The notes below the pieces were generated by a model. It was not told where the DNA came from. It was given only the letters and a program-made list of their open reading frames with translations, and made no database searches. Both the position numbers and the translations under genes were made by a program. Positions 9,614-55,639 of a DNA stretch of 64,000 nt are shown here, piece by piece. The stretch's first letter is position 1, and every line of letters begins with the position of its first letter. The stretch comes from Sorangium aterium (GTDB lineage Bacteria > Myxococcota_A > Polyangia > Polyangiales > Polyangiaceae): positions 744,001 to 808,000 of the forward strand of contig NZ_JAQNDK010000004.1 of NCBI RefSeq assembly GCF_028368935.1. The letters run 5' to 3'.

Positions 9614-12031
9614 TCACTGGAATGGCGCGACGAAGAGCTGGTACGGCCCGAAATCCACCGGAGTACGCCCCTTTACGGTGATGGCGCCGAGGCTCCCTCC
9701 CGGTCGTGCCCCGTAAATCCGGGAGTTCACGCCCTCCCTCTCGCCCGCGCAGGCGCTGAGCGGGCCGAAGCACTCGATGTCGATGGGATTGCATGCGTCG
9801 TCCGCGGTCTTGATCGTCATCGGGAAGCCGGTCAGGCCGCACGAGGACACCACGGTGGACGTCCCCGGGCAGACAGGGACATAGAACGTCTGCTCAGGGC
9901 TGCTCGCGCCGCACAAGGAGCTGGGAGGGATCGGCGCCCCGGTGGTGTCGCCGCTGATGAGGCCGCTGCCCGAGATGACCCCGGCCCTCTCGCCGAGGCA
10001 CGACGCGCGCTGGAACCTGAGGCGGACCGTGCCGAGCGCCTCGGGGCGCGAGGCCTTGACCACCACCGTATAGGTCCCGGCCCGGAGCCTGGCCGCGAAG
10101 TGCGCGCCCGGCGCGGCGTCGCCGCAGCTGTCGGCCGCGCAGCCGACGGGGGGGCCGCCGCACCCGTCGCCCTCGAGCACCGCGAGCGCCGTGTCGACGT
10201 CCGACGCCAGGGTGCCGAGGTACACGACCTCGTCGGACGGGAGCGTGAACCGGAAGAACACCTCGCCGCCGCTGCCGCCGCACGGCAGCGCGACATCGGA
10301 GGTGTTCTCGGCCGTGATCTCCGCCGCGTAATCCATCGAGCCCGTCAGCTCTCCCGGCGTCTCGCAGCTGTCGGCGCCCGGGATCGGCGTGCAGCCGTCG
10401 TCCGGGACGCCGTTGCAGTTCTCGTCGACCGCGTTGCCGCACACCTCGGGCACCGGGGAGGCGCACCCCTCGCCCTGGCAGCCGTCGTCGGGGAGCCCGT
10501 CGCAGTCCTGGTCCACCGCGTCCCCGCAGATCTCCGGCTCGGGCTCGCAGGGCGCGAACGCCGGGACATGGACGGGCACCTCGACCACGTTGTTCTCGAT
10601 CGCTTGCTCGGCGATCGCGCCGATCGGGTTGACGGTGACGCGGAGGGTGTAGTCCCCCTCGGGCACGTCCGTCACGTCGACCCACTGGCACGGCGTGCCG
10701 ACGTCGTACGTGTCGGCCCACCCCGCGCTCAGGAAGTTGCACCCCATGCCTCCCGAGGTCGGGTAGCCGCGCGGCGCGGGGGACGAAGGATCGAGAGGCT
10801 CCATGTCGACAAGGCAAAACGCCTGCTTGTGCCCCTGGGAGACGACCTCGCCCCCCGCGTCCACCAGCCGGTAATCGGTGAAGTTCAGGAAATGGAAGTG
10901 CTGGTGGCACTGCGCGTACTCGAAGAGCGGGCTGTTGAACTCGGGCCCGGGGTCGAGGTGGCCCGGCCCTGCGTTCTCGACGCGCCCCTCGAACTCGAGG
11001 AGATGCCGCCGGCCGGGGCCTCCGATGCACCTTTCCATGAGCTCGCAGGCGTCTCTGGGGAACGTCTGGTACGAGAACTGGATCGTGTCGACGATGCGCT
11101 GCCTGTCCGGGCGCAGGTCGGGCACGATGCAGACGCCGGCCTCGCACGCGTGGCCGCTGGGACAGCACGCGCCGCCGCAGATCGTGCCGTCGCAGGCGGT
11201 GTAATCGACGGGGAGGACGATCGTGTTGTTGTCGAAGCGCGCCTCGGCGAGGGTCCTGTTCGGGTTCACGGTGATCTCGAGCTCGTAGCGCCCGGCCGGG
11301 ACGCCGGTCACGTCGAGGGCGTTGCACGCGAGGGTGCCGGGCTGCTCGACGTGCTCTCCTGGGCCGAGGCCCTGCGCGTCGCAGCCGTACTGGCCGCCTG
11401 GCATCGCGACGCAGCGCGCGTCGAGCTCGGCCTCGGCGACCACCGCGCCGCCCTGGCCGAGGCGCGCGCGGAAGAAGCGCGGGACGACGTAGCTGTCCTC
11501 GCAGAAGTTCGGCTCGAAGACGTCGCTCTCCGAGGGCGCGCCGAGCTCGAGCGGAACGTCGCCGGCGTTCTCGAGCGAGACGTGGAAGCGCATGAGCGCC
11601 CGCCGGCCGCTCGCGCCGACGCACCCGTGCAGCAGCTCGCACGCGTCCTCGTCGACGCGGACCGTGGCGAACGTGACGGGCTCTTCTCGCTCCGGGGGCC
11701 CGAGCACGAGGTCCGCCGCCTCGCAGACGCCGCGCGCGCACGTGGCCCCGGGGCTGCAGCACGCCGTGTCGCCGCAGGCGCGCGCCGCGTCGCACGCGGC
11801 GGCGCAGCCCGACGGCTTGCCCTCGGCGTCGATCTGACACCGCGCGCCTCCGGGACACACGATGTCCGAGAGGGGGCAACGGATGCTCCCGGATACACCG
11901 CCGCCGCTGCCGCCGCCTCCCGGGCCGCCCCCTCCCGTGCCCGAGGGCGGCTCGGTCGGCCCGTCGTCGCCGCACGCGGCGGCCGCCAGGAGCCATGAGC
12001 CCATCAACAGCGCTTCGACGACGTTCTTCAT
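9614..12031 (-). CDS. Lipoprotein with degenerate plus intact lysyl oxidase domains and MopE-like motifs
   Basis: This 805-residue secreted protein has a lipobox (LAAAAC, Cys20), a Gly linker and a small Cys-rich domain. Two homologous lysyl-oxidase-like domains follow. Domain 1 (about 120-280) keeps the CNALDVTGVPAGRYELEITVN end but has no His cluster. Domain 2 (about 305-490) has the copper motif CHQHFH (His376, 378, 380), the GHK lysine (Lys402) and the DTY tyrosine (Tyr442). These match the residues that form the lysine tyrosylquinone cofactor in animal LOX. CQWVDVTDV and the NNVVEVPV end also match. After it come two Cys/Asp-rich MopE-like motifs (ICGDAVDQDCDGLPDDGC type) and a PPC-like beta domain. 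It probably oxidises amines or protein lysines outside the cell. The ATG at 12031 is chosen because AGGG lies 6 nt before it; an upstream ATG at 12046 has no ribosome site. Confidence 0.85.
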   Translation of the reverse strand: MKNVVEALLMGSWLLAAAACGDDGPTEPPSGTGGGGPGGGGSGGGVSGSIRCPLSDIVCPGGARCQIDAEGKPSGCAAACDAARACGDTACCSPGATCARGVCEAADLVLGPPEREEPVTFATVRVDEDACELLHGCVGASGRRALMRFHVSLENAGDVPLELGAPSESDVFEPNFCEDSYVVPRFFRARLGQGGAVVAEAELDARCVAMPGGQYGCDAQGLGPGEHVEQPGTLACNALDVTGVPAGRYELEITVNPNRTLAEARFDNNTIVLPVDYTACDGTICGGACCPSGHACEAGVCIVPDLRPDRQRIVDTIQFSYQTFPRDACELMERCIGGPGRRHLLEFEGRVENAGPGHLDPGPEFNSPLFEYAQCHQHFHFLNFTDYRLVDAGGEVVSQGHKQAFCLVDMEPLDPSSPAPRGYPTSGGMGCNFLSAGWADTYDVGTPCQWVDVTDVPEGDYTLRVTVNPIGAIAEQAIENNVVEVPVHVPAFAPCEPEPEICGDAVDQDCDGLPDDGCQGEGCASPVPEVCGNAVDENCNGVPDDGCTPIPGADSCETPGELTGSMDYAAEITAENTSDVALPCGGSGGEVFFRFTLPSDEVVYLGTLASDVDTALAVLEGDGCGGPPVGCAADSCGDAAPGAHFAARLRAGTYTVVVKASRPEALGTVRLRFQRASCLGERAGVISGSGLISGDTTGAPIPPSSLCGASSPEQTFYVPVCPGTSTVVSSCGLTGFPMTIKTADDACNPIDIECFGPLSACAGEREGVNSRIYGARPGGSLGAITVKGRTPVDFGPYQLFVAPFQ

Positions 12032-14126: not shown

Positions 14127-17100
14127 CTACCGCGGGAACTTCAGCTCGCAGGCGTCACGCGGAACCGCGATGACTCCCTTCGTCAGCTCGTCACGCATGT
14201 AGATGTAGGCCATTACACCGGCGTTGAAGGCCGCTCTCCGGAGCCATGCATCGACCTCCGGCGAGCTCGCGTCCGCGGTGCGGAGCTCGTCCGTAAGAGG
14301 GTTCCTGAGCGTGCACACGTCCCTCCACATGGGCACGCCGAACTCCGGAGCCACGGCGCTGCCCAGGATGACGCTCCAATTCCCGCTCGCGGCCGCGGCG
14401 TCGTAAAGGGCTCCGAACCGATGAGCATCGGTGCGGATCTCATCGCAGGCGGCGCGCGCAACGCCGAGCATGTTCGCCTTCGATCTCTTGAATGCGGCTT
14501 TCGCGGTCTCCGGATCGAGCGGGATCGGCACCGCGGCCACGATCCGATTGTCGACGAAGACGTTGAAGAAGGTCCTCTCCTCCTCCGTGGTACGGCCGAA
14601 TGAAACGGTGGTGCCCCCCGTCGCCATCCAGACGAGGTACTTCGCCGCCCCGTCGGGCCCGAGGCCGTCCCTCCCCCGCGTCGGGCCCATGGAACGTGGC
14701 GAGGTTCTCGTTGGGGGCCCAGCGCGGGCCGAAGAGCCCGTCCACGAAGCTCGCCACCCTCGCCCCGGAGGTCGCGCGGAGCGCCCTGGCCGCGCCGGTC
14801 TGGGCGTCTCCGTAAATCCCATGGCAATTCGTGCAGATACCGGCGTAGATATGCTCCCCCGGGTTGGCCCAGTAGATCGCGCTCCACGGCCGGCGCGGCC
14901 TCCCGGTCCCCGGATTGATCATCCACTGCTCCACCGGCTCAGGCTCTGGCGCGTCGTCCGGAAACGCGCAGCCTGGGATGAAGAACCCCTGAGCGTAGAC
15001 CTTCTTCGCCAGCGCCTCGTGCTCGCTCGTCACCTCCTCCGCGCGGATCCAGTCGTCGAGCTTCGTCTTCCAGTCGATGTTGCGCGGGACGTACGGATAG
15101 CGCTCGGTCGTGTCCTCGAGCACCCACCCGAGCTCGCGATGCTGCTCGCAGTCGTGAAGGGCACGCGCCTCCGCGGCGTCCGCCGCGCGCGTGGCGAGCT
15201 CGATCGCCTCCGGATCCTCCGGCGCCTCCCGTCCCCCGCGCTCGTAATCGCGCGGCACCGACGCCCACCAGCGCGCCACGAGGACCGGCAGGCGGCAGTC
15301 GACAGACGCCGTGTGCATCGGCATGTGGAGGTTGAAGAACGCGTTGACCTCCTCGTTCTCCACGGGCAGGCCGAACGCACGGGGAGTCCACGATCCCGTG
15401 GGCAGGACGACGCGGCGGTAGATACCTCCGACCGGGATGGAGCTCTGGATGACGAGCTCATCGAAGGACGCCGGCACACCAGGAAAGTAGAGCCGCCCGT
15501 CCGAGCCCACGGTATCCATGTGAAACCCGAAGATGCTCCCGCCAGGCGACATATCCAGGCCTCGCAGCGTCGCCTTGCTCGCCACCGCATAGCCGCGCGG
15601 GTTATGGCAATGGGCGCAGTTGCCTGCCATGTAGGCCTGCATGTTCAGCTCGTCGTCATTGCGCGGCCGGCGGGGCAGCGCGGACTCCTCGAGCCTGGGG
15701 AAGTCGTCGGGCGTGAGGGTCGCCAACGTGCCGCGCACGACGCCGTACGCGAGGAGACGCTCCAGCTGATTGAGCTCGTCGGCGAGCACGTCCGGCGTGT
15801 AGACGCCCCCTTCCCCCTTGGGTCGCTTGTGGAGCTGGAAGGGCGTGATGCCGAGGACGAAGCTCTCGCTCTCCGAGCCCGTGTGGCACGCCACGCATCG
15901 CGTCGCACCGGGCACGGCGTAGCTCTGCAGTGCACCGGTGGTCTCGTTGGCCGTGTAAGGGCGGACGTAGTCGGGGAACGGCTCACCGTTCAGGTAGAGC
16001 TCCCTGCTGTCCGGTGACGCCGGATCGAGCCCGGTCCCGAGGAGCTTCGCGCTCGTCTCCTCCGCGTTCCACACGTACGTGCCGAAGATCGCGTCCTCGG
16101 CCTGCTCGCGCGTCACGATGATGCGCGTCTCCATCTTGCGGTATCGCGTGGCGCCGTCGGGCTCGACCACGGCCCTGAAGAAGGTCTTGTAGAAGCGGCT
16201 GTTCGAGGGGATGCGGAGGCTCTTCGCCTCCGGGTCGTACGTGATGGCCTGCCCCGCCGGGACGTGCACGAAGCGGAGCTTCGCCGCGTCGTCCGACCAG
16301 AGAGGGTAGGTCGGCGCGTAAGCGAGCGTCCCCCTGCGCGCGAGCACCTCGGCGTCCAGCGAGACGAAATCGGTCTCCGACAGCTTGACCGGGAGGTCCT
16401 CGAACGATCGCATCGCGGCGAAGCGCTCATCCACCTCCTCGTCTCGACCGACGATCTCGGCGTCGGGGATGCAGTTCCCGAGCTCCGTCTGCGCATCGCC
16501 GATCTCGCGCGGGGTCACGAAATCCACGTCGGGATCGACGTGGATTTCGCCCTTCGGGAGGACGTACGTGCCGGCAGGGCACCCCTGCTCGATCCACGCC
16601 TGCACCCGCCGGCCGAGCGCCTCTTGCCCGCCGATCTTGTAGGGCATCTCCCCGCTGAGCATGACGTCAACGGGCGTCTTGCCGCTCTTGCCGCGCGCAT
16701 TGCACAGGTTCTCCGGAGTGCCGGTGTAGGAGAAGTCGCCTTGCTCTGCCGGGGCCTTGTGGCAGTTGCCACATTGAATCTCGATCTCCCCCGAGAGATT
16801 GCTGAAGGTATCGAGGGCATCCTCGACCGTCGCCGAGTGGCGCTGAGGGATCGGCTCGTGCGATCGGGCAGGGGCGCATTGACGTGGCGGCGTGCCCCCC
16901 CCGTCACCGCCGCTGCCGCCGGTACCGCCGGTGCCGCCGCCTCCGCTGTTATCGCCGCCCGCGACCCCGCCGGTACCGCCGGTGCTGCCGCTTCCGCCGT
17001 TATCACCGCCCGCGACCCCGCCGCTGCCGCCGGCACCGCCGGTGCCGCCGCCGCTCGTGTCCTCCGGGGGCTCACCGGTATCGTCACCTCCACAGCTGTA

Positions 17101-46496: not shown

Positions 46497-46934
46497 GTTC
46501 ACTCCCCTGGGTTGCGATCAGAGCAGCGAAGCGACGGAGCTACTCCGGCGTGGAGCGCGCCGAGGAGCCGATCGTCGCCTTCCGCGTCCCGGTGTCCCGG
46601 GAGGCCTCTTCTTCCGACTCCGAGACGGCAGCGGCCAGAGCGCAGCCAGCCCGTGAGCTCGGGAGTCCTCCGTGAGACCAGCTCGATGAGCATAGAAGTC
46701 CTATGGGGCGACGCTCCCTGCAAGAAGCGTGGAGTGGCGCGCGCTCCCCTGCGCGCTCCCCTGCGCGCGCCACCGCGGCGTCCACAGCGCGAGCGCTCCC
46801 GGCGCCGACGCCGGTCGCGAATGGACTGGCGCTTGCCGTTCCAGGAGGCGCGTGAGCGGCGTGCCCACGGGCGAGGTCGCGCATCCCCCCAGGAGCGGCT
46901 GCCGTGCCGCGCACGCGGCGCAGGAGAGGCGAGC
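46497..46934. other. Divergent intergenic region
   Basis: No supported gene lies here. A short direct repeat (CGCGCTCCCCTG twice near 46739-46766) is visible. The promoters for the divergent low-complexity protein (-) and the FG-GAP-like protein (+) must lie in it. The open frames that cross it look like composition artefacts. Confidence 0.5.
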
Positions 46935-48005
46935 GTGACGAGTCCTGTGGTCGTGACCAAGTATCTGTGTGCCGCCGCTGCGATTCACGCCGTGCTCGGC
47001 TGCGCCGCCGGCGTCGACCTGCCCGACGAGGGCGGATCCGCGGCGCCTGCGACTCCCACCCTCGGGGTCGCAGAACAGCGGGCCAGCGCCTACGGGTGGA
47101 GGATCATCCAGACGATCGACTTCAATTTCGACGGAAAGCAGGATGTCCTCTGGATAGACCCCGATCGCAGCCGCATGGCCATCTGGTTCATGGACGGAGC
47201 CCAGCTGCTCACGCCGGGCCCGATCCTTCAGGGGCCGGCCGGCAGAGGCTGGATCGCCATATCGAACGACTTCAACGCCGATGGCATGGGGGACGTGATC
47301 TGGCGTCACGATCAGCGGGACCTGATAACGATCTGGCTCATGGACGGAGGCCGGCCGTTCGCGCAGGGGCCGGTGATCCCCGGGCCACGCGGCAGCGGCT
47401 GGGTGATCCGGCCGAACGACTTCAACCGCAACCTCGGCTCGGATGTGCTCTTTTATAACGAAGAGAAGAAGTTGATGACGGTGTGGCTGATGGATGGCAA
47501 TCAGCTGCTCGCGCCGGGCCCGTTCCTTCCGGGGCCGGGCGGCGACTGGGACATCGGACCCGTCCCCGACTTCAACTTCGATCGCATCGGGGACGTGATC
47601 TGGAACGACGACGTGCGCAACCTGATGACGGTGTGGCTGATGAGCAACACCGAGGTCCTCGGGCGGGGGCCGGTGATCCCCGGGCCGGCCGGCGAGGGAT
47701 GGGAAGTCCTCTGGGCGAGCGATTTCAACGCTGACGGCATGGCGGACGTGCTTTGGTCCAACGAGGACAAGGGCCTCATCGCGGTGTGGCTGATGAACGG
47801 CGTCGAGCTCCTCGACGTGGGGCCGGTGATCCCCGGGCCGATCGGCGGCGGCTGGAGAGCGATCGCCGCCGGCGACGTCAACGGCGATCTGATGACGGAC
47901 GTCGTGTGGCAACGCCTGGGGACGAGCCAGATGGCGGTTTGGTTGATGAATGGCACCCACCTCCTCTCGCCAGGGCCGGTGATCCTGGGCCCCCCCGGCG
48001 GCTGA
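46935..48005 (+). CDS. FG-GAP/VCBS-like six-repeat lipoprotein
   Basis: This 356-residue protein starts at GTG 46935 with AGGAG upstream. It has a lipobox (AVLGC) and six tandem units of about 50 residues with the pattern DFNxDGxxDVLW...(10)...WLMDGxxLLxxGPVIPGPxGxGW. The Asp/Asn-rich DFNADG loops resemble the calcium-binding loops of FG-GAP repeats, so a beta-propeller is likely. The repeats are strongly alike, suggesting recent duplication or concerted evolution. Function is unknown; related repeats are common in secreted myxobacterial proteins. Any longer frame upstream lacks a signal peptide. Confidence 0.82.
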   Translation: MTSPVVVTKYLCAAAAIHAVLGCAAGVDLPDEGGSAAPATPTLGVAEQRASAYGWRIIQTIDFNFDGKQDVLWIDPDRSRMAIWFMDGAQLLTPGPILQGPAGRGWIAISNDFNADGMGDVIWRHDQRDLITIWLMDGGRPFAQGPVIPGPRGSGWVIRPNDFNRNLGSDVLFYNEEKKLMTVWLMDGNQLLAPGPFLPGPGGDWDIGPVPDFNFDRIGDVIWNDDVRNLMTVWLMSNTEVLGRGPVIPGPAGEGWEVLWASDFNADGMADVLWSNEDKGLIAVWLMNGVELLDVGPVIPGPIGGGWRAIAAGDVNGDLMTDVVWQRLGTSQMAVWLMNGTHLLSPGPVILGPPGG

Positions 48006-48040: not shown

Positions 48041-48682
48041 TCAGTTCGAGACGCCCGCCGCGCGCAGCCCGTCCCGGGCCAGCGCGTGCTTGGGCGCGAT
48101 GTCGAGGACCCGCCGGAGCTCCCGCGCGGCGTCGCCGCCCTTGCCCATCTTGAGCAGCGACCAGCCGAGGCCCGAGCGCACCTCGACGTCGCTCGGGTAC
48201 ATCTCCGCGAGCCGGCCGTAGATCGTCGCCGCCTCCGGGTAGCGCGCCAGGTTGTACAGGGCGAACGCGAGCCGCAGGCTGGCGAGGTAGTTCGCGGGGT
48301 CGAGCTGCAGCGCCTTCCGCGCGGTCGCCTCCACGTCGGCCCACCGGCGCAGCGCCATCTGCGGGAGCAGCGCGCCGACGCGCGACTCGACCGATCTCGG
48401 CTCGAGCGCGCTCGCCCTGCCGTACGCGTCGACGGCCTCCTTGTTGCGCCCGAGCTTGTGATAGAGCCAGCCGCGGCGGAGCTCCGCCACGTAGCCATCC
48501 TTCTGCGGCGCAGGGAGGCGATCGAGCGCGGCGAGCGCGTCCTGCACCTTCCCGGCGGCCTCGGCGTCATAGGACAGCTGGAACAGGTCCGCCGGCCTCC
48601 CCTCCGCCTCGGCGGCCCCGGAAGGGACGCCGCTCAAGGCACAACCGACCAGCATCACGAAGAACCATCGACTCGCTCTCAT
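48041..48682 (-). CDS. Exported TPR protein (last gene of five-gene operon)
   Basis: This 213-residue protein has a signal or lipoprotein N-terminus (MRASRWFFVMLVGCALSG) and five TPR-like repeats (YDAEAAGKVQDALAALDRL, GWLYHKLGRNKEAVDAYGRA, ATARKALQLDPANYLASLRL, FALYNLARYPEAATIYGRL, GWSLLKMGKGGDAARELRRV). The ATG overlaps the stop of the urea-transporter/M23 fusion gene (ATGA at 48679-48682), so the two are translationally coupled. It probably is a periplasmic scaffold for the products upstream. Confidence 0.85.
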   Translation of the reverse strand: MRASRWFFVMLVGCALSGVPSGAAEAEGRPADLFQLSYDAEAAGKVQDALAALDRLPAPQKDGYVAELRRGWLYHKLGRNKEAVDAYGRASALEPRSVESRVGALLPQMALRRWADVEATARKALQLDPANYLASLRLAFALYNLARYPEAATIYGRLAEMYPSDVEVRSGLGWSLLKMGKGGDAARELRRVLDIAPKHALARDGLRAAGVSN

Positions 48683-50931
48683 GACGTCTCCTCGCCGAAT
48701 GACACGGTGAATTTCCTGTCGGCGTCCTGGATCCGCTCCGCTGCCCGCGTGCGGCCCTGCGCCGTGATCTCGACCCTGAGCGGCCCTCTGCCCCTCGTGA
48801 GCTCCGCCCGCGTCCGCACGAGCGGCTCGCCGCGGCGATCGCGCCGCCGCGACTCGCCGAGCACCACGAGGAGGTCGCCCTCGCGGCGCATCCTGAGGTC
48901 CATCTCGATCCCGTCGCCTGGCAGGAAGGGGGCGACGAAGTCGGCGAGCGCCCGGAGCGCGACCGCGCGGAACCGCCGCGCCGGCAGCGTGTCCGCCCAG
49001 CGGAGCGAGGCGCTGCCCTCGAGCGGCACCCGCGGGAGCGCCGCGCGCAGCAGGTGAACGACCGACGCGTCGTCGCCCACCGCGTCGAAGCTCGTGAACA
49101 GGTCGTCGCTCCTGCCGTAGAAGAGCGACGCGGCGCGGTCCTCCGAGCGGATCAGGAGCCGCCCGTAGACGTCCACGTCGCACGTGACGCGCTCGACGTG
49201 CGCGCCGACGCGGTACGCCCAGGTGTCGCCGCAGGTGAAGCCGAAGTACGCGGACACGTCCTCGTCGGCCTCGATGGAGCGCACGGCGTCGCCCTCCCGC
49301 GGCTCCAGGCTGGGCCAGAGCCGCGCCTCCTCGCCGACCGTGACCACGTCGGTGAAGCTGCATGGGAGCGTCGGCGCGCCGAGCTTATGGGTCGACTGGA
49401 GCTGGAAGTGCAGGTGCGGCTCGGGGGATCGACCCGAGCTGCCGGCGAGCCCGAGGACGTCGCCCCGCTTCACCCATTGCCCCTCCACGACCTTGAGCGT
49501 CCCGCGCGCGAGGTGCGCGACCATGGAGTAGACGCCGGGCGCGTGGGCCACGATGACGTGGTTGCCCCAGTTCTGCTCGAGGTTCATCGCGCCGACGTCG
49601 CTGTCGGGCACGCTCGACTCGACCTTCACCACGGTGCCGTCGGCGGCCGCGACCACGGGCAGCCGGTGGCAGTGGAAGTCCTGCGGCGCGCTCCCGGCGC
49701 CGCGGAAGGCCTGGCCACCTTCGTCCATCACCTGGAAATCGAAGGCATACCGCCACTGCTCCTTGTGCGTGAACGCGCCGTCGACCGCCTGCGTGCACGT
49801 CCACGTGCCGCGGAACGGGAGCCGGAAGCTCACCCCGTGCGGCGACCGCTGGAAGCGCGCGCGCCGCGTGCGGAAGTACGCGAGGTTCTGCTCGGGCGTG
49901 CCCGGGAGGAAATCCACGGCCTTGGGCCGCTCGTCGCGCGCGCGCCGCCGCATCGCGAGCAGGGCGGCGACGACGGTGACGTTGAACGGCAGGATCAGCG
50001 GCGCCGCGCCGAGCCGCGCGAGCGGCGCCATCGCGCCGGCGGTGACGAGCGCGGCGGCGACGGCGCCGGACAGGCCGAGCGCGAACGAGGACGCCGAGGG
50101 GACGAACCAGACGCCGCCCAGCCCGACCGCCGTGAGGACGGCGTTGTAGCCGAGCACGTCGAGCGCGCCGTCAGGGAGCGAGAGCCATCGCGAGGCGAGC
50201 CCGAGCACCGCCGCGAACGCGAGCGCGGCGAGGAGCGCGGCGATCCGGCTGTGGACGAGGAGCGCGGCGAGCACCAGCGCGCCCGCGTCGGCGCGGGGCA
50301 GGAAGAAGAGGCCGCCGAGGCACCGCGCGAACAGCGCGATGGGCGCGGGCAGGCCCTCGATCGCGGGCGGGGCTTGCGCGTGCGCCGCGAGCGTGAGCCC
50401 GGAGAACGCCGAGGTGCTCAGCGTCAGGTGGAAGACGACGATGAACGGCAGCGAGAGCACCGGCAGGCCGGCGGCGCCGCCGGAGCCGAGACCGGAGAGG
50501 GAGCGCAGCGCGGCCGTGACCACCACGCACGCGGCGGCGCCGAGCAGCGCGACGGCGACAGCGGGGCCGTCCGCGGTGAACGACTGCGCCACGCCGAGGC
50601 CGACGAGGAGCGCGTTGTACGCGTAGGACCCGTCCCTCACGGCGTCCTTCTCGAGGTCGAGGAGGAGCGCGGCCCCGTTCGCCGCGCACGCCGCGATGAC
50701 GCCGAACACGAAGGCGCGAGGCACGGTGGCGGTCGCGAGCAGCACGAGCAGCCCCACGGCCGGCGAGCGCGAGAACAGGATGTGCGCGTAGACCCGGAGG
50801 AGCGACTCCCCCATCTCGGCGACGCCGCTCCTCGCGAGCAGCGAGCTCACGGCCGCCGCGACCCGACGGCGCCGGGCCGTCCAGGTCGCGTGCGCCGCGC
50901 CGCTCGTCGGCGCGGGGATCACCTGAGCCAT
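48679..50931 (-). CDS. Fusion of urea-transporter-like membrane domain with M23-type domain
   Basis: This 750-residue protein has an N-terminal urea-transporter-like domain (about 35-335) with ten or so hydrophobic segments and the two-fold repeat GSYAYNALLVGLGVA ... LDVLGYNAVLTAVGLG, matching the UT family. From about 400 it has an M23/LytM-like domain (VVAAADGTVVKVE, NWGNHVIVAHAPGVYSMVAHL, GDVLGLAGSSGRSPEPHLHFQL). The C-terminal HxH pair (HLHF) and a central His are present. The first zinc-ligand position reads WRYAFDF, with no His before the Asp, so peptidase activity is doubtful. About 200 more residues of beta-rich sequence follow. It overlaps the decarboxylase gene by 13 bp and the TPR gene by 4 bp. 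Confidence 0.85.
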   Translation of the reverse strand: MAQVIPAPTSGAAHATWTARRRRVAAAVSSLLARSGVAEMGESLLRVYAHILFSRSPAVGLLVLLATATVPRAFVFGVIAACAANGAALLLDLEKDAVRDGSYAYNALLVGLGVAQSFTADGPAVAVALLGAAACVVVTAALRSLSGLGSGGAAGLPVLSLPFIVVFHLTLSTSAFSGLTLAAHAQAPPAIEGLPAPIALFARCLGGLFFLPRADAGALVLAALLVHSRIAALLAALAFAAVLGLASRWLSLPDGALDVLGYNAVLTAVGLGGVWFVPSASSFALGLSGAVAAALVTAGAMAPLARLGAAPLILPFNVTVVAALLAMRRRARDERPKAVDFLPGTPEQNLAYFRTRRARFQRSPHGVSFRLPFRGTWTCTQAVDGAFTHKEQWRYAFDFQVMDEGGQAFRGAGSAPQDFHCHRLPVVAAADGTVVKVESSVPDSDVGAMNLEQNWGNHVIVAHAPGVYSMVAHLARGTLKVVEGQWVKRGDVLGLAGSSGRSPEPHLHFQLQSTHKLGAPTLPCSFTDVVTVGEEARLWPSLEPREGDAVRSIEADEDVSAYFGFTCGDTWAYRVGAHVERVTCDVDVYGRLLIRSEDRAASLFYGRSDDLFTSFDAVGDDASVVHLLRAALPRVPLEGSASLRWADTLPARRFRAVALRALADFVAPFLPGDGIEMDLRMRREGDLLVVLGESRRRDRRGEPLVRTRAELTRGRGPLRVEITAQGRTRAAERIQDADRKFTVSFGEETS

Positions 50932-52262
50932 GCCGGCACGTCCTCGACGGCGCGGAAATCGTCGAGCGTCTCCGCGCGGCGGATGCAGGAGGCGCCTCCC
51001 TCGCCCACCATCACCACCGCCGGACGGAGGGTGATGAACTGGTGCCACTGCGTCACGTTGTAGGCGCCCACGTTGCGGAACACGAGCCGATCTCCCGGGG
51101 ACGACGCCGGGAACTGCATGGTGTCGCGCACCACGTCGATGTTCATGCACAGCGGGCCGAACATCACGGTGGGCTCCTGCATGGCGCTGAACTCCTGCGC
51201 CGGGACGACATCGTGTTTGTACCAGAACGAGGTGAAGAGCAGGTTGACGCCCGCGTCGAGGACGAGGCCGCTGCGCCCGTCGGGGAGGCGCTTCTTGGCC
51301 TCGACCGTCGCGATCAGGTACCCCGCGTCGTCCACCAGCGCGCGGCCCGTCTCGAGGACGAGCGTCGGGAGCTCCCGTGCGGGACAATCGAGCTCGCCGA
51401 GGCCGTCGCAGATGGCCTCGGCGTAGCGCTCGAACGACGGAGATGCCTGCTCGCCGAGCAGGTACTGCGCCTTCAGCGTGTTCTTCGAGGCGAAGCCGCC
51501 GCCGAGGTCGAGGAACGAGAGCCGGATCCCGTGCGCGGCGCGTATCTCGTTGGCGAGGCGCGCCAGCTTGGACGCCGCCTTGCCGTAGGCGCCCGGGTCG
51601 AGGATGAACGTGCCGATATGGCAGTGCAGCCCGGTGAGCTCCATGCGATCTCCGCTCACGAGGCGGTTCACTGCCTCCCTGGCCTGGCCGGACTCGAGGT
51701 TCAGGCCGAACCGGCTCCACGGCGCGAGTCCCTCGATGTTCATGTTGACCCGAATGGCCACCTTCGGGCGCGCCTTGACCCGCTCGGCGACCCGCTCGAT
51801 CCGCGCGAGCTCGTCGAGGTTGTCGATGTGGATGATCGAGCCGCCGGAGACCGCGCGCGCGAGCGCCGCGTCGGGCTTGTACGGGCCGTTCCAGTGGATC
51901 CGCTCGGCCGGGACGCCCGCGAGGATCGCCTTGTCGTACTCGAAGGGCGAGACGACCTCGGCCCAGGCGCCTTCGCGGTGGAACGTGCGGCAGATCGCCT
52001 CGAGGTAGTTCGTCTTGTACGACCAGGCGATCCGCACTTTGGCCCAGCGGCGCGCGAACGCGCCGTGGAGCTCGCGGTAGCGGTTCACGAGCGTCCGCTG
52101 CGAGAACACGAAGAGCGGTGATCCGTGCTCGGCGACGAGATCGGCGACGGCGACTCCATCGATGTGGGTGAGGGGCCGCACGCCCTGGAGGCGGCCGAAC
52201 TTGTTCATCGCCCCCATCTGGTGCCGGACGATGCTGGGCGATTCGTAGACCGGGCTGTTCAC
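50919..52262 (-). CDS. PLP-dependent fold-III decarboxylase (LysA-like)
   Basis: This 447-residue enzyme of the alanine-racemase-fold group includes diaminopimelate and ornithine decarboxylases. It has the PLP Lys83 (SYKTN), HCHIGT, the glycine loop LDLGGGF, LETGRALV, the active-site Cys in GPLCMNIDVV and GAYN. The start is GTG at 52260-52262 with AGGAGG 7 nt upstream, and overlaps the ATP-grasp stop (GTGA). All the usual catalytic residues are visible, so it is probably active. It decarboxylates an amino acid or a carboxylated polyamine-like product; the substrate cannot be told. Membership of this operon rather than a lysine-synthesis locus argues against a housekeeping LysA. Confidence 0.9.
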   Translation of the reverse strand: MNSPVYESPSIVRHQMGAMNKFGRLQGVRPLTHIDGVAVADLVAEHGSPLFVFSQRTLVNRYRELHGAFARRWAKVRIAWSYKTNYLEAICRTFHREGAWAEVVSPFEYDKAILAGVPAERIHWNGPYKPDAALARAVSGGSIIHIDNLDELARIERVAERVKARPKVAIRVNMNIEGLAPWSRFGLNLESGQAREAVNRLVSGDRMELTGLHCHIGTFILDPGAYGKAASKLARLANEIRAAHGIRLSFLDLGGGFASKNTLKAQYLLGEQASPSFERYAEAICDGLGELDCPARELPTLVLETGRALVDDAGYLIATVEAKKRLPDGRSGLVLDAGVNLLFTSFWYKHDVVPAQEFSAMQEPTVMFGPLCMNIDVVRDTMQFPASSPGDRLVFRNVGAYNVTQWHQFITLRPAVVMVGEGGASCIRRAETLDDFRAVEDVPAWLR

Positions 52263-53326
52263 GAGAGGCCTCCTGAACGGACGAGCTCGCCCGTCGTCAC
52301 CATGCTCTGAAAGTCGCTGATCCGCGCGACCTGGTCGATCGAGATGCGGACGAACATCGCGCCGACCTCGTAGCCGCGGAGCGGCTCGATCGGCGCGCCC
52401 GCGGCGAGATCGACCACGGCGCGAGGCAGGTTCATCCCCGCAGCCACGCTCAGGTACACCCACGCAGGGAAGCGCGGGTTGACCTCGATGAGGTGATAGC
52501 GCCCGTGCGCGTCGCGCATCACCTCGACCTCGAAGGGGCCGCGCCACCTCGTCGCCTCCGCGAAGGCCTGCGCGATGCCGACGAGCTCGGGGTCGCGCAC
52601 GGTGATCCCGGCCCATCCCTTTCCCTTGTCGGTGAGGAGCATCTTTTTCATCGGCACGGCGCCGACGAGCCCGCCTTCCCCGTCGCCGACGGCCACCACA
52701 TCGAGCTCCTCCCCGGTCACGTGCTCCTGGACGAGGACCGGGAGGCCCCACTGGGCAATCACCTTGTAATAGGCCGACACCGCTTCATCGAAGGTCGTCG
52801 CCAGCGTCGCACCGTAGAACACGCCCTTCACGTGGAAGGGGTAAGGCACCCGCTCGTGGATGCGGAGGAGCTCGTCGGCGTCCGAGAGGGCCGCCGTGCG
52901 CGGGACCCGGATGCCGGCGCGGGCGCCGAGCGCGGCGAGGCTCGCCTTCGAGCGGAGATCGAGCTGCTCGCGCGTGGGCAAGCAGGTGCCGATCCCCATG
53001 GCGTGGAGCCGCGGCGCGATGTCGATGAACGAGGGCAGCTCGGCGTCGAGCGTCGGGATGATCACGTCGAGCCCGACCCGGCGGTGGACGTACTCGAGGC
53101 GGGACACGAACGCTTCCAGGCCCTGCGATGGATAGGGGATCATGAACACGTCGCTCACGATGTCGCCGGCGTACGCGCCGGGATCGAGCGCGTCGTACGC
53201 GAGGCCGACGATGCGGAGCGAGGCGTCGCCGCCCGCGCGGAGCGCCCGGATGACGCCCACGCCGGGCGCGGGGTTGTCGGTCGCGTTGAGGCCGGTGACG
53301 GCGATGGTGCGGGGCCTCGTCTTCAC
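52259..53326 (-). CDS. ATP-grasp ligase-like enzyme
   Basis: This 355-residue carbamoyl-phosphate-synthase-like ATP-grasp protein has an N-terminal Rossmann-type domain (TIAVTGLNATDNPAPGVGVI, LDVIIPTLDAELP), the ATP-grasp core (PYPFHVKGVFYGATLATTF, VLVQEHVTGEELDVVAVGDG) and the metal/ATP motif FEVEV...HLIEVNPRFPAW. The GTG start at 53324-53326 overlaps the PqqD-like stop (GTGA) and has GGAGG upstream. ATP-grasp enzymes join a carboxylate to an amine, thiol or phosphate through an acyl-phosphate. With the PqqD-like protein upstream, an amide-forming step on a peptide or amino acid is plausible but unproven. Confidence 0.87.
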   Translation of the reverse strand: MKTRPRTIAVTGLNATDNPAPGVGVIRALRAGGDASLRIVGLAYDALDPGAYAGDIVSDVFMIPYPSQGLEAFVSRLEYVHRRVGLDVIIPTLDAELPSFIDIAPRLHAMGIGTCLPTREQLDLRSKASLAALGARAGIRVPRTAALSDADELLRIHERVPYPFHVKGVFYGATLATTFDEAVSAYYKVIAQWGLPVLVQEHVTGEELDVVAVGDGEGGLVGAVPMKKMLLTDKGKGWAGITVRDPELVGIAQAFAEATRWRGPFEVEVMRDAHGRYHLIEVNPRFPAWVYLSVAAGMNLPRAVVDLAAGAPIEPLRGYEVGAMFVRISIDQVARISDFQSMVTTGELVRSGGLS

Positions 53327-53667
53327 TGGGCTCCCTCCGGCTCGGCGGAGATGAGGCCGTGTTGCCGGAGGAGCTCCACGAACTCGCCGACGTCGCGCGC
53401 CGGGTCGCCCCCGCGGATGTCGAAGCGCTCGCGGAGCCGGGCGGCGACCTCCTCGCGCGAGAGCCCGTCTTTCATGGCGTTGAGGGCGCACAGGCCGGTG
53501 GGATTGACGGTGAACGTCGCGCCCGACGCGGGATCGAACACGAATCCGGTGTCGCTGAGTGCAAGCTCTTTCAATCGCAGGATCGCGCTCACGCGAGCCT
53601 CCTCGTTCTCAAGGATGTTGGGCGCGCCGATCGTGACGACGCACGCGCCGCCGTCCCCGGGGCGCAC
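53323..53667 (-). CDS. PqqD-like (RRE-fold) small protein
   Basis: This 114-residue protein has the PqqD pattern: three strands (ILRLKELALSDTGFVFDPASG, then ATFTVNPTGLCALNAM) followed by helices (SREEVAARLRERFDI, DPARDVGEFVELLRQHGLIS). In RiPP systems this fold is the recognition element that binds a leader peptide. The start is GTG at 53667 with GGAG 8 nt upstream, preceded by about 250 bp that include repeats. It heads the coupled operon. No radical-SAM partner is present, unlike PQQ synthesis; many PqqD-like proteins serve other pathways. Confidence 0.8.
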   Translation of the reverse strand: MRPGDGGACVVTIGAPNILENEEARVSAILRLKELALSDTGFVFDPASGATFTVNPTGLCALNAMKDGLSREEVAARLRERFDIRGGDPARDVGEFVELLRQHGLISAEPEGAQ

Positions 53668-53923: not shown

Positions 53924-54142
53924 GCGCAGAGGGTTGCCGGGGCCGCGCAGGAGCCACTCGAACGTACGATAGGACACCAAAGCGGATGCGCAGGAGGGTT
54001 GCCGGGGCCGCGCAGGAGCCACTCGATCGTACGATAGGACACAGAAATGGGTGCGCAGGAGGGTCGCCAGGGCTGCGCAGGAGGGTCGCCGGGGCTGCGC
54101 AGGAGGGCCACGGGACCGCGCAGCAGGACCGCCGGGGCTGCG
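53924..54142. repeat. Composite degenerate repeat array
   Basis: Units of about 22 bp (GCGCAGGAGGGTCGCCGGGG type) begin at 53924, 53988, 54053, 54075, 54097 and 54118. The first two are followed by an inserted block of about 43 bp containing CACTCGA(A/T)CGTACGATAGGACAC. The long units are about 65 bp apart and nearly identical. There is no CRISPR-like spacer structure. The array ends 8 bp before the insertion sequence. Confidence 0.85.
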
Positions 54143-54150
54143 TAGTGTAC

Positions 54151-55639
54151 GAGCGGAGCCCTGGTAACACTTCTGACCGGGAGCTGCGGTGACACTTCCT
54201 TGAGCTACAGGCCCATGCTCCGGGAGGACTGGAAACAGGGACCGGATCCTCGTCGGCGCGACACGCTCGCCGCGCTTTCTCGGACCGCCTGGATCTATAC
54301 ACGAACCGCTCCCCGTGGTCGCGGTACACACGAGCCTCTTCTCACGATCCGGCGTGAGTTCGCGCAGGTCACCGCGCCCTGGCCAGCTGAAGCTCCTTGT
54401 TCTTCAGGGTGACCTGCGCGAGCAGAACCGGGCCGTAGTACAGCTCCCAGACGTCATCGGCGCTCGGAATCAGCCCCACGGGCTCGCCGGCGAGCAGTGA
54501 GGAGACGGTGGTCTGCGCGCCCCCGAACAGCATCCGTCCTTGGTCGTCAAGGCGTCGAATGGCCATCGTGTCCGGGTACTCCGGCGACGAGGGCTTGCTC
54601 GGCATCGAGCGGCGCGAGGGCGTGTAGCGCGAAGCCGGCGTCCTCTGGCCGAGCGCCTCGTGCGGACGCTGATCATTGTACTCGTGCCGAAACCGATCGA
54701 AGACGCGCTGCTGCGCTGCCAAGTTGGCTTCTGGCGGCGATGTCGCCTCCGCCTTCAACGTCTTGTGCATTCGCTCGTGGCGGCCGTTCTGCTGCGGCTT
54801 ACCGGGCTCGATCCGCTCGGGATGAATGCCGAGCTTGATCCAGCTGACCGAGAGCGCCGAGAGCCCACCGATGCCAATCGTGGCGAACGGCGGCCCGTTA
54901 TCGGAGCGGATGCGGTGCGGCAGCCCGAACTCGCGGAACGCGCGCTCGAAGTGCGGCCGCACCGAGGCCTCGTCCGGCTTCGCCACGCCCTCGCACTTGA
55001 GCAGGTACCGCGACGCCTGGTCCGTCAACGTCAGCGGGTGGCAGCGCGTCCTGTCGCCGAGCGCGAAGTGCCCTTTGAAATCGGCGCACCACGTGTCATT
55101 CGGCTGCTCGGCTGGAGCCAGCGGCGACGGCATCGCGGTCGTCGGCGTCACTACGCGGCGCCGACGGGGCCGGATCAGCCCGTGCTTCTTGAGCAACTCG
55201 CCGATGGTGCTCGTTGCTGGCAGCCCCTCGACGCCCAGGCTCTCCAGCCGCGCACGCAGCTTCTTCGGCCCCCACGTGGGGCGCTCCTTCCGCAGCTCGA
55301 TCAGCGCGTCGATGAGCGCCGCTGGCGTCGCATGCGGGAACGAGCGCGCCACGGGCCGCCGCTCCTCCAGCCCGCTCGGTCCGGCCTGCTCGTAGCGCTC
55401 CACCCACTTGTACCCCGTCTTCCGGCTGATGCCGAACCGCCGGCACAGCTCCGCGAACGTCTCGTCCGACTCGTTGACCTGCGCGATGAATCGAAGCCTC
55501 TCGTCCACTGAACATGTCTCTTTCCAGGGCACCGGCGCTCCTCCGTCGCCGGTCCTCTACGACATGTGTCACCTAAGCTCCCGGTCCGTCCGGGTGCTAC
55601 CCAGGCTCCCGGTCTGAACCGTTACCCAGGCCACCGGTC
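54151..55639 (-). mobile_element. IS481-family insertion sequence
   Basis: An element of about 1.49 kb has one transposase gene and imperfect inverted ends. The left end (CTGGTAACACTTCTGACCGG at 54161-54180, then GAGC...GGTGACAC) matches the reverse complement of the right end (55629 down to 55594: TGGGTAACGGTTCAGACCGG). An outer pair (GAGCGGAGCC at 54151 and GACCGGTGGC ending at 55639) extends the match. A further internal copy of GACCGGGAGC lies at 55584-55575. No clear target duplication is seen, so the exact edges are uncertain by several bases. Confidence 0.85.
54369..55532 (-). CDS. IS481-family DDE transposase
   Basis: This 387-residue transposase has an N-terminal helix-turn-helix (FAELCRRFGISRKTGYKWVE), a second winged segment (LLKKHGLIRPRRRR) and the rve integrase core with the DDE triad: Asp in WCADFKGHF, Asp in IRSDNGPPF and Glu in NGRHERMHKTLK. 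It is full length with no frameshift, so the element may be active. The start is GTG at 55530-55532 with GGAGGAG upstream. Confidence 0.93.
   Translation of the reverse strand: MPWKETCSVDERLRFIAQVNESDETFAELCRRFGISRKTGYKWVERYEQAGPSGLEERRPVARSFPHATPAALIDALIELRKERPTWGPKKLRARLESLGVEGLPATSTIGELLKKHGLIRPRRRRVVTPTTAMPSPLAPAEQPNDTWCADFKGHFALGDRTRCHPLTLTDQASRYLLKCEGVAKPDEASVRPHFERAFREFGLPHRIRSDNGPPFATIGIGGLSALSVSWIKLGIHPERIEPGKPQQNGRHERMHKTLKAEATSPPEANLAAQQRVFDRFRHEYNDQRPHEALGQRTPASRYTPSRRSMPSKPSSPEYPDTMAIRRLDDQGRMLFGGAQTTVSSLLAGEPVGLIPSADDVWELYYGPVLLAQVTLKNKELQLARAR

Follow-up and report, generated by a model that had tools for sequence, protein, structure and literature searches.

Organization and conservation of the operon

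In the 64,000-nucleotide stretch of Sorangium aterium DNA analysed here (contig NZ_JAQNDK010000004.1, positions 744,001 to 808,000, hereafter the window; source assembly of 13.5 Mb in 7 contigs), five genes of the minus strand encode a PqqD-like protein, an ATP-grasp ligase, a pyridoxal 5'-phosphate (PLP)-dependent decarboxylase, a fusion of a urea-channel (UT) fold with an M23 metallopeptidase, and a tetratricopeptide repeat (TPR) protein (Table 1). Reading this strand confirmed all four overlapping junctions reported in a preliminary description of the locus: GTGA at 53323-53326 between the PqqD-like and ligase genes and again at 52259-52262 between the ligase and decarboxylase genes, a 13-bp ATG...TGA overlap at 50919-50931 between the decarboxylase and UT-M23 genes, and ATGA at 48679-48682 between the UT-M23 and TPR genes. 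The five family names given there also stand, since each protein scores above the Pfam cut-off of the family named: PqqD with 39 bits (cut-off 23.4), ATPgrasp_Ter with 49 bits (cut-off 29.1), Orn_Arg_deC_N and Orn_DAP_Arg_deC with 116 and 49.5 bits, UT (PF03253) with 129 bits (cut-off 25) and Peptidase_M23 with 64 (cut-off 28.7) for the fusion protein, and several TPR families for the last gene. The upper end of the operon had to be revised. The PqqD frame remains open up to 53667, the limit first proposed, but the gene very probably starts at the GTG at 53592, because this codon is preceded by the ribosome-binding site GAGGAGG and agrees with the equivalent start region in Minicystis rosea. 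The TPR protein is probably extracytoplasmic.

Table 1 Features of the operon and the adjacent insertion element in the window
Feature	Position	Strand	Basis
PqqD-like protein, 89 aa, RRE-type (RiPP recognition element) fold by family	53323..53592	-	Pfam PqqD; start revised from 53667
ATP-grasp ligase, 355 aa, carbamoyl-phosphate-synthase-like class	52259..53326	-	PF15632 and PF02655 above cut-off
Alanine-racemase-fold PLP decarboxylase, 447 aa	50919..52262	-	Pfam; nearest solved relative FigC (7kh2)
Urea-channel fold (~30-358), M23 metallopeptidase (~363-541) and C-terminal beta-rich domain	48679..50931	-	Pfam, AlphaFold2
TPR protein, 213 aa, N-terminal hydrophobic signal-like segment	48041..48682	-	Pfam TPR families; last gene of the set in relatives
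Insertion element, DDE transposase open reading frame 54369-55532	54158..55631	-	Genomic copies, imperfect terminal inverted repeats

The proposal that these genes form a dedicated, conserved and unnamed set is borne out by a neighbourhood analysis seeded with the ATP-grasp ligase. The complete set of five, on a single strand and in the sequence PqqD, ATP-grasp, decarboxylase, UT-M23, TPR, is present in all 57 non-redundant loci whose flanks reach at least 700 bases upstream and at least 6500 bases downstream of the ligase gene; these loci were located via the ligase and do not show how often the other four genes occur without it. This clustering is far beyond chance. A start no more than 30 bases from the preceding stop can be assigned in 76 of 83, 57 of 84 and 62 of 79 cases for the first three junctions, respectively. 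The related loci belong to Myxococcota, Bacteroidota, Ignavibacteriota/Chlorobiota and Thermodesulfobacteriota, and searching GTDB genomes with the ligase alignment yielded at least 560 confirmed relatives, so that hundreds of sequenced species appear to carry the gene set. Its product must be useful, because the set has been kept as a unit across distant phyla. We found no paper describing the five-gene combination in open-access text, and the set itself is unnamed in the literature searched.

The operon has a patchy distribution, which may result from loss or transfer: it occurs in about 5-10% of the sampled genomes, with 12 of 118 from Bacteroidota and 3 of 61 from the Pedobacter family carrying it. 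Within the order of S. aterium, a full-length UT-M23 relative is found in about 11 of 116 genomes, and at the eleven loci the neighbours follow in the same order as far as the contigs extend. Among named relatives, the ligase is closest to that of Minicystis rosea (74% identity over 348 columns). The ligase tree separates a Bacteroidota/Ignavibacteriota/Chlorobiota side from a Myxococcota-like side with full support, which indicates that the gene set is old. One truncated locus (L087) departs from the common arrangement, having the PqqD and ATP-grasp pair only (9684-11113), with no decarboxylase or channel downstream; this exception may reveal the function of the PqqD-like protein. A radical S-adenosylmethionine (SAM)-like open reading frame (ORF; 15716-16780, minus strand) lies a few kb from this pair. 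In Chryseobacterium-like genomes (L070, L075-L077, L080, L088) the last TPR gene seems to be present as a tandem duplicate.

Decarboxylase, ligase and PqqD-like protein

The decarboxylase keeps the catalytic residues K83, H215, G254-G256 and C372, and its profile scores against solved structures are 274 bits for the N-citrylornithine decarboxylase FigC, 197 bits for the best diaminopimelate decarboxylase (DapDC) and 130 bits for BtrK. In FigC, the charged residues used elsewhere to bind diaminopimelate, ornithine or arginine give way to T327, T330 and Y331 of the specificity helix and to M355, the neighbour of the catalytic C354; H357 and R387 are the likely contacts to the citrate part of the substrate (PMC7857480). 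T344, W347, Y348 and M373 of the window enzyme align with the first four of these residues, so that two of the three specificity-helix contacts (T327 and Y331) are kept, as well as M355, and T330 is replaced by Trp347. The substrate partner is probably not citrate, because H357 and R387 are replaced by I375 and Q405. Among 87 full-length aligned sequences, T344, W347, Y348, M373 and Q405 are at least 97% conserved, and I375 is not. This residue pattern fits a side-chain conjugate carrying a non-citrate partner. The enzyme reaches 210.9 bits with the NCBIfam model of FslC, below the cut-off of 500, and it falls far under the cut-offs of the exosortase-associated and DokD decarboxylase models, which were rejected as identities.

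The enzyme is easily confused with diaminopimelate decarboxylase (LysA), with which it has the fold and PLP machinery in common, and annotation would be misled by this likeness. NCBIfam lysA (TIGR01048) is its top family match by E-value, but the score of 222.5 bits is below the cut-off of 297.9, and the Arg that defines the diaminopimelate substrate (R343 in M. jannaschii) and the acidic residue following the catalytic Cys are replaced by T344 and M373. The genome has a separate LysA (L003) which scores 328 bits, above the cut-off, and keeps the LysA residues MNTMARP and CEN. Identity with LysA was rejected for these reasons, and that with a polyamine enzyme likewise; the enzyme is not an ordinary diaminopimelate decarboxylase, as the preliminary description requires.

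For the ligase, the nearest profiles of solved structures are those of the carbamoyl-phosphate synthase (CPS) large subunit. The protein belongs to the CPS-like ATP-grasp enzymes, the same class in which BtrJ has been placed (PMC4431377). Residues K127, K167, E207, E268, E281, N283 and R285 are near-invariant, and the nucleotide and metal residues are retained. The pairing of an ATP-grasp enzyme with a decarboxylase of this broad group has a precedent in BtrJ/BtrK of the butirosin side-chain pathway. BtrK acts on a tethered amino acid, as does MccE of the same decarboxylase group, whose substrate is a peptidyl-nucleotide. The operon differs from the butirosin pathway in having a PqqD-like protein, whereas no conserved acyl carrier protein gene was found among the clustered neighbours of the related loci, and its decarboxylase is nearer to FigC than to BtrK. 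The second precedent is the rhizoferrin pathway of FigA/FigC (FslA/FslC), in which a ligase-made ornithine amide is the conjugate that an alanine-racemase-fold decarboxylase acts on. Here too there are differences: the FigA-type ligase is a nonribosomal-peptide-synthetase-independent siderophore (NIS) synthetase and not an ATP-grasp enzyme, the citrate-binding residues of FigC are not kept, and the candidate exporter is the UT-M23 fusion, whereas that of rhizoferrin is a major facilitator superfamily (MFS) protein.

Proteins of the PqqD family are binders of leader peptides, and the operon's PqqD-like protein is the sole match to this family in its own genome. As in the PqqD-dependent pathways for ribosomally synthesized and post-translationally modified peptides (RiPPs; lasso, PQQ, HPr-rel-A), a small stand-alone PqqD-family protein heads the operon. 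However, the set has no precursor peptide, radical SAM enzyme or lasso protease, and the protein falls below the family-specific NCBIfam cut-offs (43 bits with the lasso PqqD model, cut-off 70). The preliminary description envisaged a peptide substrate encoded beside PqqD, which has found no support so far: no conserved small ORF is present between the genes or within 1.5 kb upstream or downstream in the related loci, and a precursor peptide encoded there was rejected. Only one locus (L078, at 16445) and five related ones have a cold-shock-like small ORF after the TPR gene.

The channel-peptidase fusion and the accompanying genes

The AlphaFold2 model of the UT-M23 protein (predicted local distance difference test, pLDDT, 91) matches urea-channel chains over residues 30-358 (Z ~38 over 304-318 residues) and LytM/M23 chains over residues 363-541 (Z ~15). 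We know of no precedent for such a channel-peptidase fusion. The zinc and catalytic residues of the M23 domain (H389, D398, H473, H506 and H508) are invariant in 42 sequences. The channel has the same 10-helix fold as bacterial and animal urea transporters (dvUT, UT-B), but it is fused to M23, scores below the NCBIfam cut-off for urea transporters (63.6 against 274.6 bits) and differs in the outer site. In dvUT, E187 belongs to the outer (So) urea site (PMC4357013); in most of the 42 sequences Ala, Ser or Gly stands at this position, in the others Leu or Tyr, and in none Glu or Gln. The Gln of the inner site is retained in 27 of the 42 and is His in the window protein. The suggestion that a small product crosses the membrane here is therefore plausible as to the pore, with the UT fold intact, whereas passage of urea itself is doubtful because the outer coordinating residue is missing throughout.

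Solved urea channels have ten membrane helices (PMC10541013), so both termini of the UT domain should lie on one side of the membrane. Loops on the side of the termini carry on average 3.7 Lys and Arg residues, against 1.05 on the other side, and the count is higher on the termini side in 40 of the 42 sequences. By the positive-inside rule, these charges and the shared side of the termini would place the M23 domain in the cytoplasm, which is the most surprising and the least secure of our inferences.

In Bacteroidota and part of the Myxococcota, a sixth gene, encoding TPR repeats and a C-terminal barrel, lies between the UT-M23 and TPR genes; other Myxococcota, including Minicystis (L047), have it upstream of PqqD. 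The protein from Pedobacter is predicted to fold into helices and a 14-stranded barrel (pLDDT 92), and the barrel model matches FadL, TodX, CymA and OmpG (Z 18-20, with 20 for FadL-type barrels). The gene is absent from the window, and no full-length match was found elsewhere in the genome. The place that this TPR/outer-membrane-barrel gene has in close relatives, immediately upstream of the operon, is taken in the window by an insertion element of which the genome contains five near-identical copies, and we infer that the barrel gene was lost by transposition. Between this element and the PqqD gene lies an apparently noncoding array of four imperfect 65-base direct repeats (53929-54145).

In Pedobacter, a histidine kinase gene followed by one for an apparent LytTR-type regulator is found directly upstream of the operon. 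Related kinase and regulator clusters occur at 22 and 25 loci, counts to be taken as upper guides only, because the two-component clusters mix regulator types. In one locus (L074, 9075-9575) and 14 others, several of them from Chitinophagaceae, the gene that immediately precedes PqqD, in the same orientation, encodes a GNAT acetyltransferase; this enzyme could acetylate an amine product.

Proposed pathway and alternatives

The best explanation as a whole, which we regard as plausible yet somewhat short of probable, is that the operon makes a small amide and exports it. The ATP-grasp enzyme would couple a partner to the side chain of an amino acid, such as the amine in the side chain of ornithine or lysine or the carboxyl in that of glutamate; the alpha-amino and alpha-carboxyl groups would stay free. 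The FigC-like decarboxylase, as its residues suggest, would then take CO2 off the conjugate and give an amide ending in a free amine. Formation of an amide by the ligase and subsequent decarboxylation of the conjugate would be analogous to FigA/FigC or BtrJ/BtrK, which provide the precedents for the chemistry. The PqqD-like protein may hold or deliver the substrate, which might be attached to a peptide whose gene lies elsewhere. With the topology predicted above, the M23 zinc domain at the cytoplasmic mouth of the channel would trim or release the product and the urea-channel-type pore would let it through the inner membrane, while the TPR protein, together with the TPR/outer-membrane barrel in most relatives, would complete the exit route. 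Because this genome lacks the barrel gene, the product may cross the outer membrane through a different porin; alternatively, the pathway may be impaired. In a fuller version, which we consider rather unlikely, a PqqD-bound peptide would carry the amino acid while it is amidated and decarboxylated, the cytoplasmic M23 domain would free it at the channel mouth and a TPR/barrel conduit would provide the exit.

Several observations weigh against synthesis and export of a small amide. In a small tree FigC sits on a very long branch, which makes its exact placement unsure. No gene for a precursor peptide or carrier protein was found in the operon, and the role of the PqqD-like protein is thereby left unexplained, unless such a partner is encoded at a distance. 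The placement of the M23 domain rests on charge counts and homology, and a periplasmic domain would fit both the lipoprotein-like, secreted stand-alone relative of M23 at one locus (L017) and two cysteines that are usually co-conserved (both present in 36 of 42 sequences). Finally, like the window, several Ignavibacteriota/Chlorobiota loci are without the barrel gene.

Other explanations account for parts of these data. PqqD might recruit a ribosomal peptide encoded elsewhere, to which the ATP-grasp enzyme would add an amino acid that the decarboxylase trims on the peptide, M23 cutting the product off at the channel mouth, in a peptide-based equivalent of the BtrI/BtrJ/BtrK carrier pathway. 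This agrees with the leader-binding role of the PqqD family (with the lasso model score, albeit below its cut-off), with the tethered substrates of BtrK and MccE, and with an intact zinc site in an M23 domain predicted to be cytoplasmic, but the lack of a conserved small ORF in or near the related loci makes it somewhat unlikely. M23/LytM domains usually act on peptidoglycan, and the cell envelope could instead be the target: an amine made in the cytoplasm would leave via UT and be attached to, or used with, peptidoglycan, while a periplasmic M23 domain remodels the wall that surrounds the TPR and barrel proteins. The TPR and barrel partners are indeed envelope proteins and the M23 relative of L017 stands alone in a lipoprotein-like ORF; however, the loop charges put both termini of the channel in the cytoplasm, as in solved urea channels of the same fold, and neither a transpeptidase nor another ligase gene is among the conserved neighbours. 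We therefore judge this possibility unlikely.

Import would reverse the direction, with an outside amide or amine taken up through the barrel and channel and converted by the cytoplasmic enzymes. Urea channels are passive and work in both directions, the barrel resembles the uptake channels FadL, CymA and OmpG, and an external compound could be the signal for the two-component system at many Bacteroidota loci. Still, ATP-grasp enzymes and conjugate decarboxylases are biosynthetic in all the precedents cited and the set includes no catabolic enzyme, so that import appears quite improbable. Ordinary lysine or polyamine metabolism, in which a diverged LysA or ornithine/lysine decarboxylase would have incidental neighbours, has in its favour the top lysA match by E-value; the missed cut-off, the replaced substrate residues, the separate LysA and the perfect linkage to the other four genes make it extremely improbable. 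A role in anti-phage defence was rejected, with no PADLOC match.

If the fuller version with a PqqD-bound peptide is correct, the operon would couple biosynthesis to export in a new way, and its M23 domain would act in the cytoplasm on a metabolite and not on the cell wall. The presence of biosynthetic genes and a urea-type channel in one operon offers a concrete test of non-urea cargo for such channels. Beyond the operon, an ORF on the plus strand (46512-48005), convergent with the TPR gene, contains about seven DFNxDGxxDVLW-type repeats like those of FG-GAP/VCBS repeat proteins.

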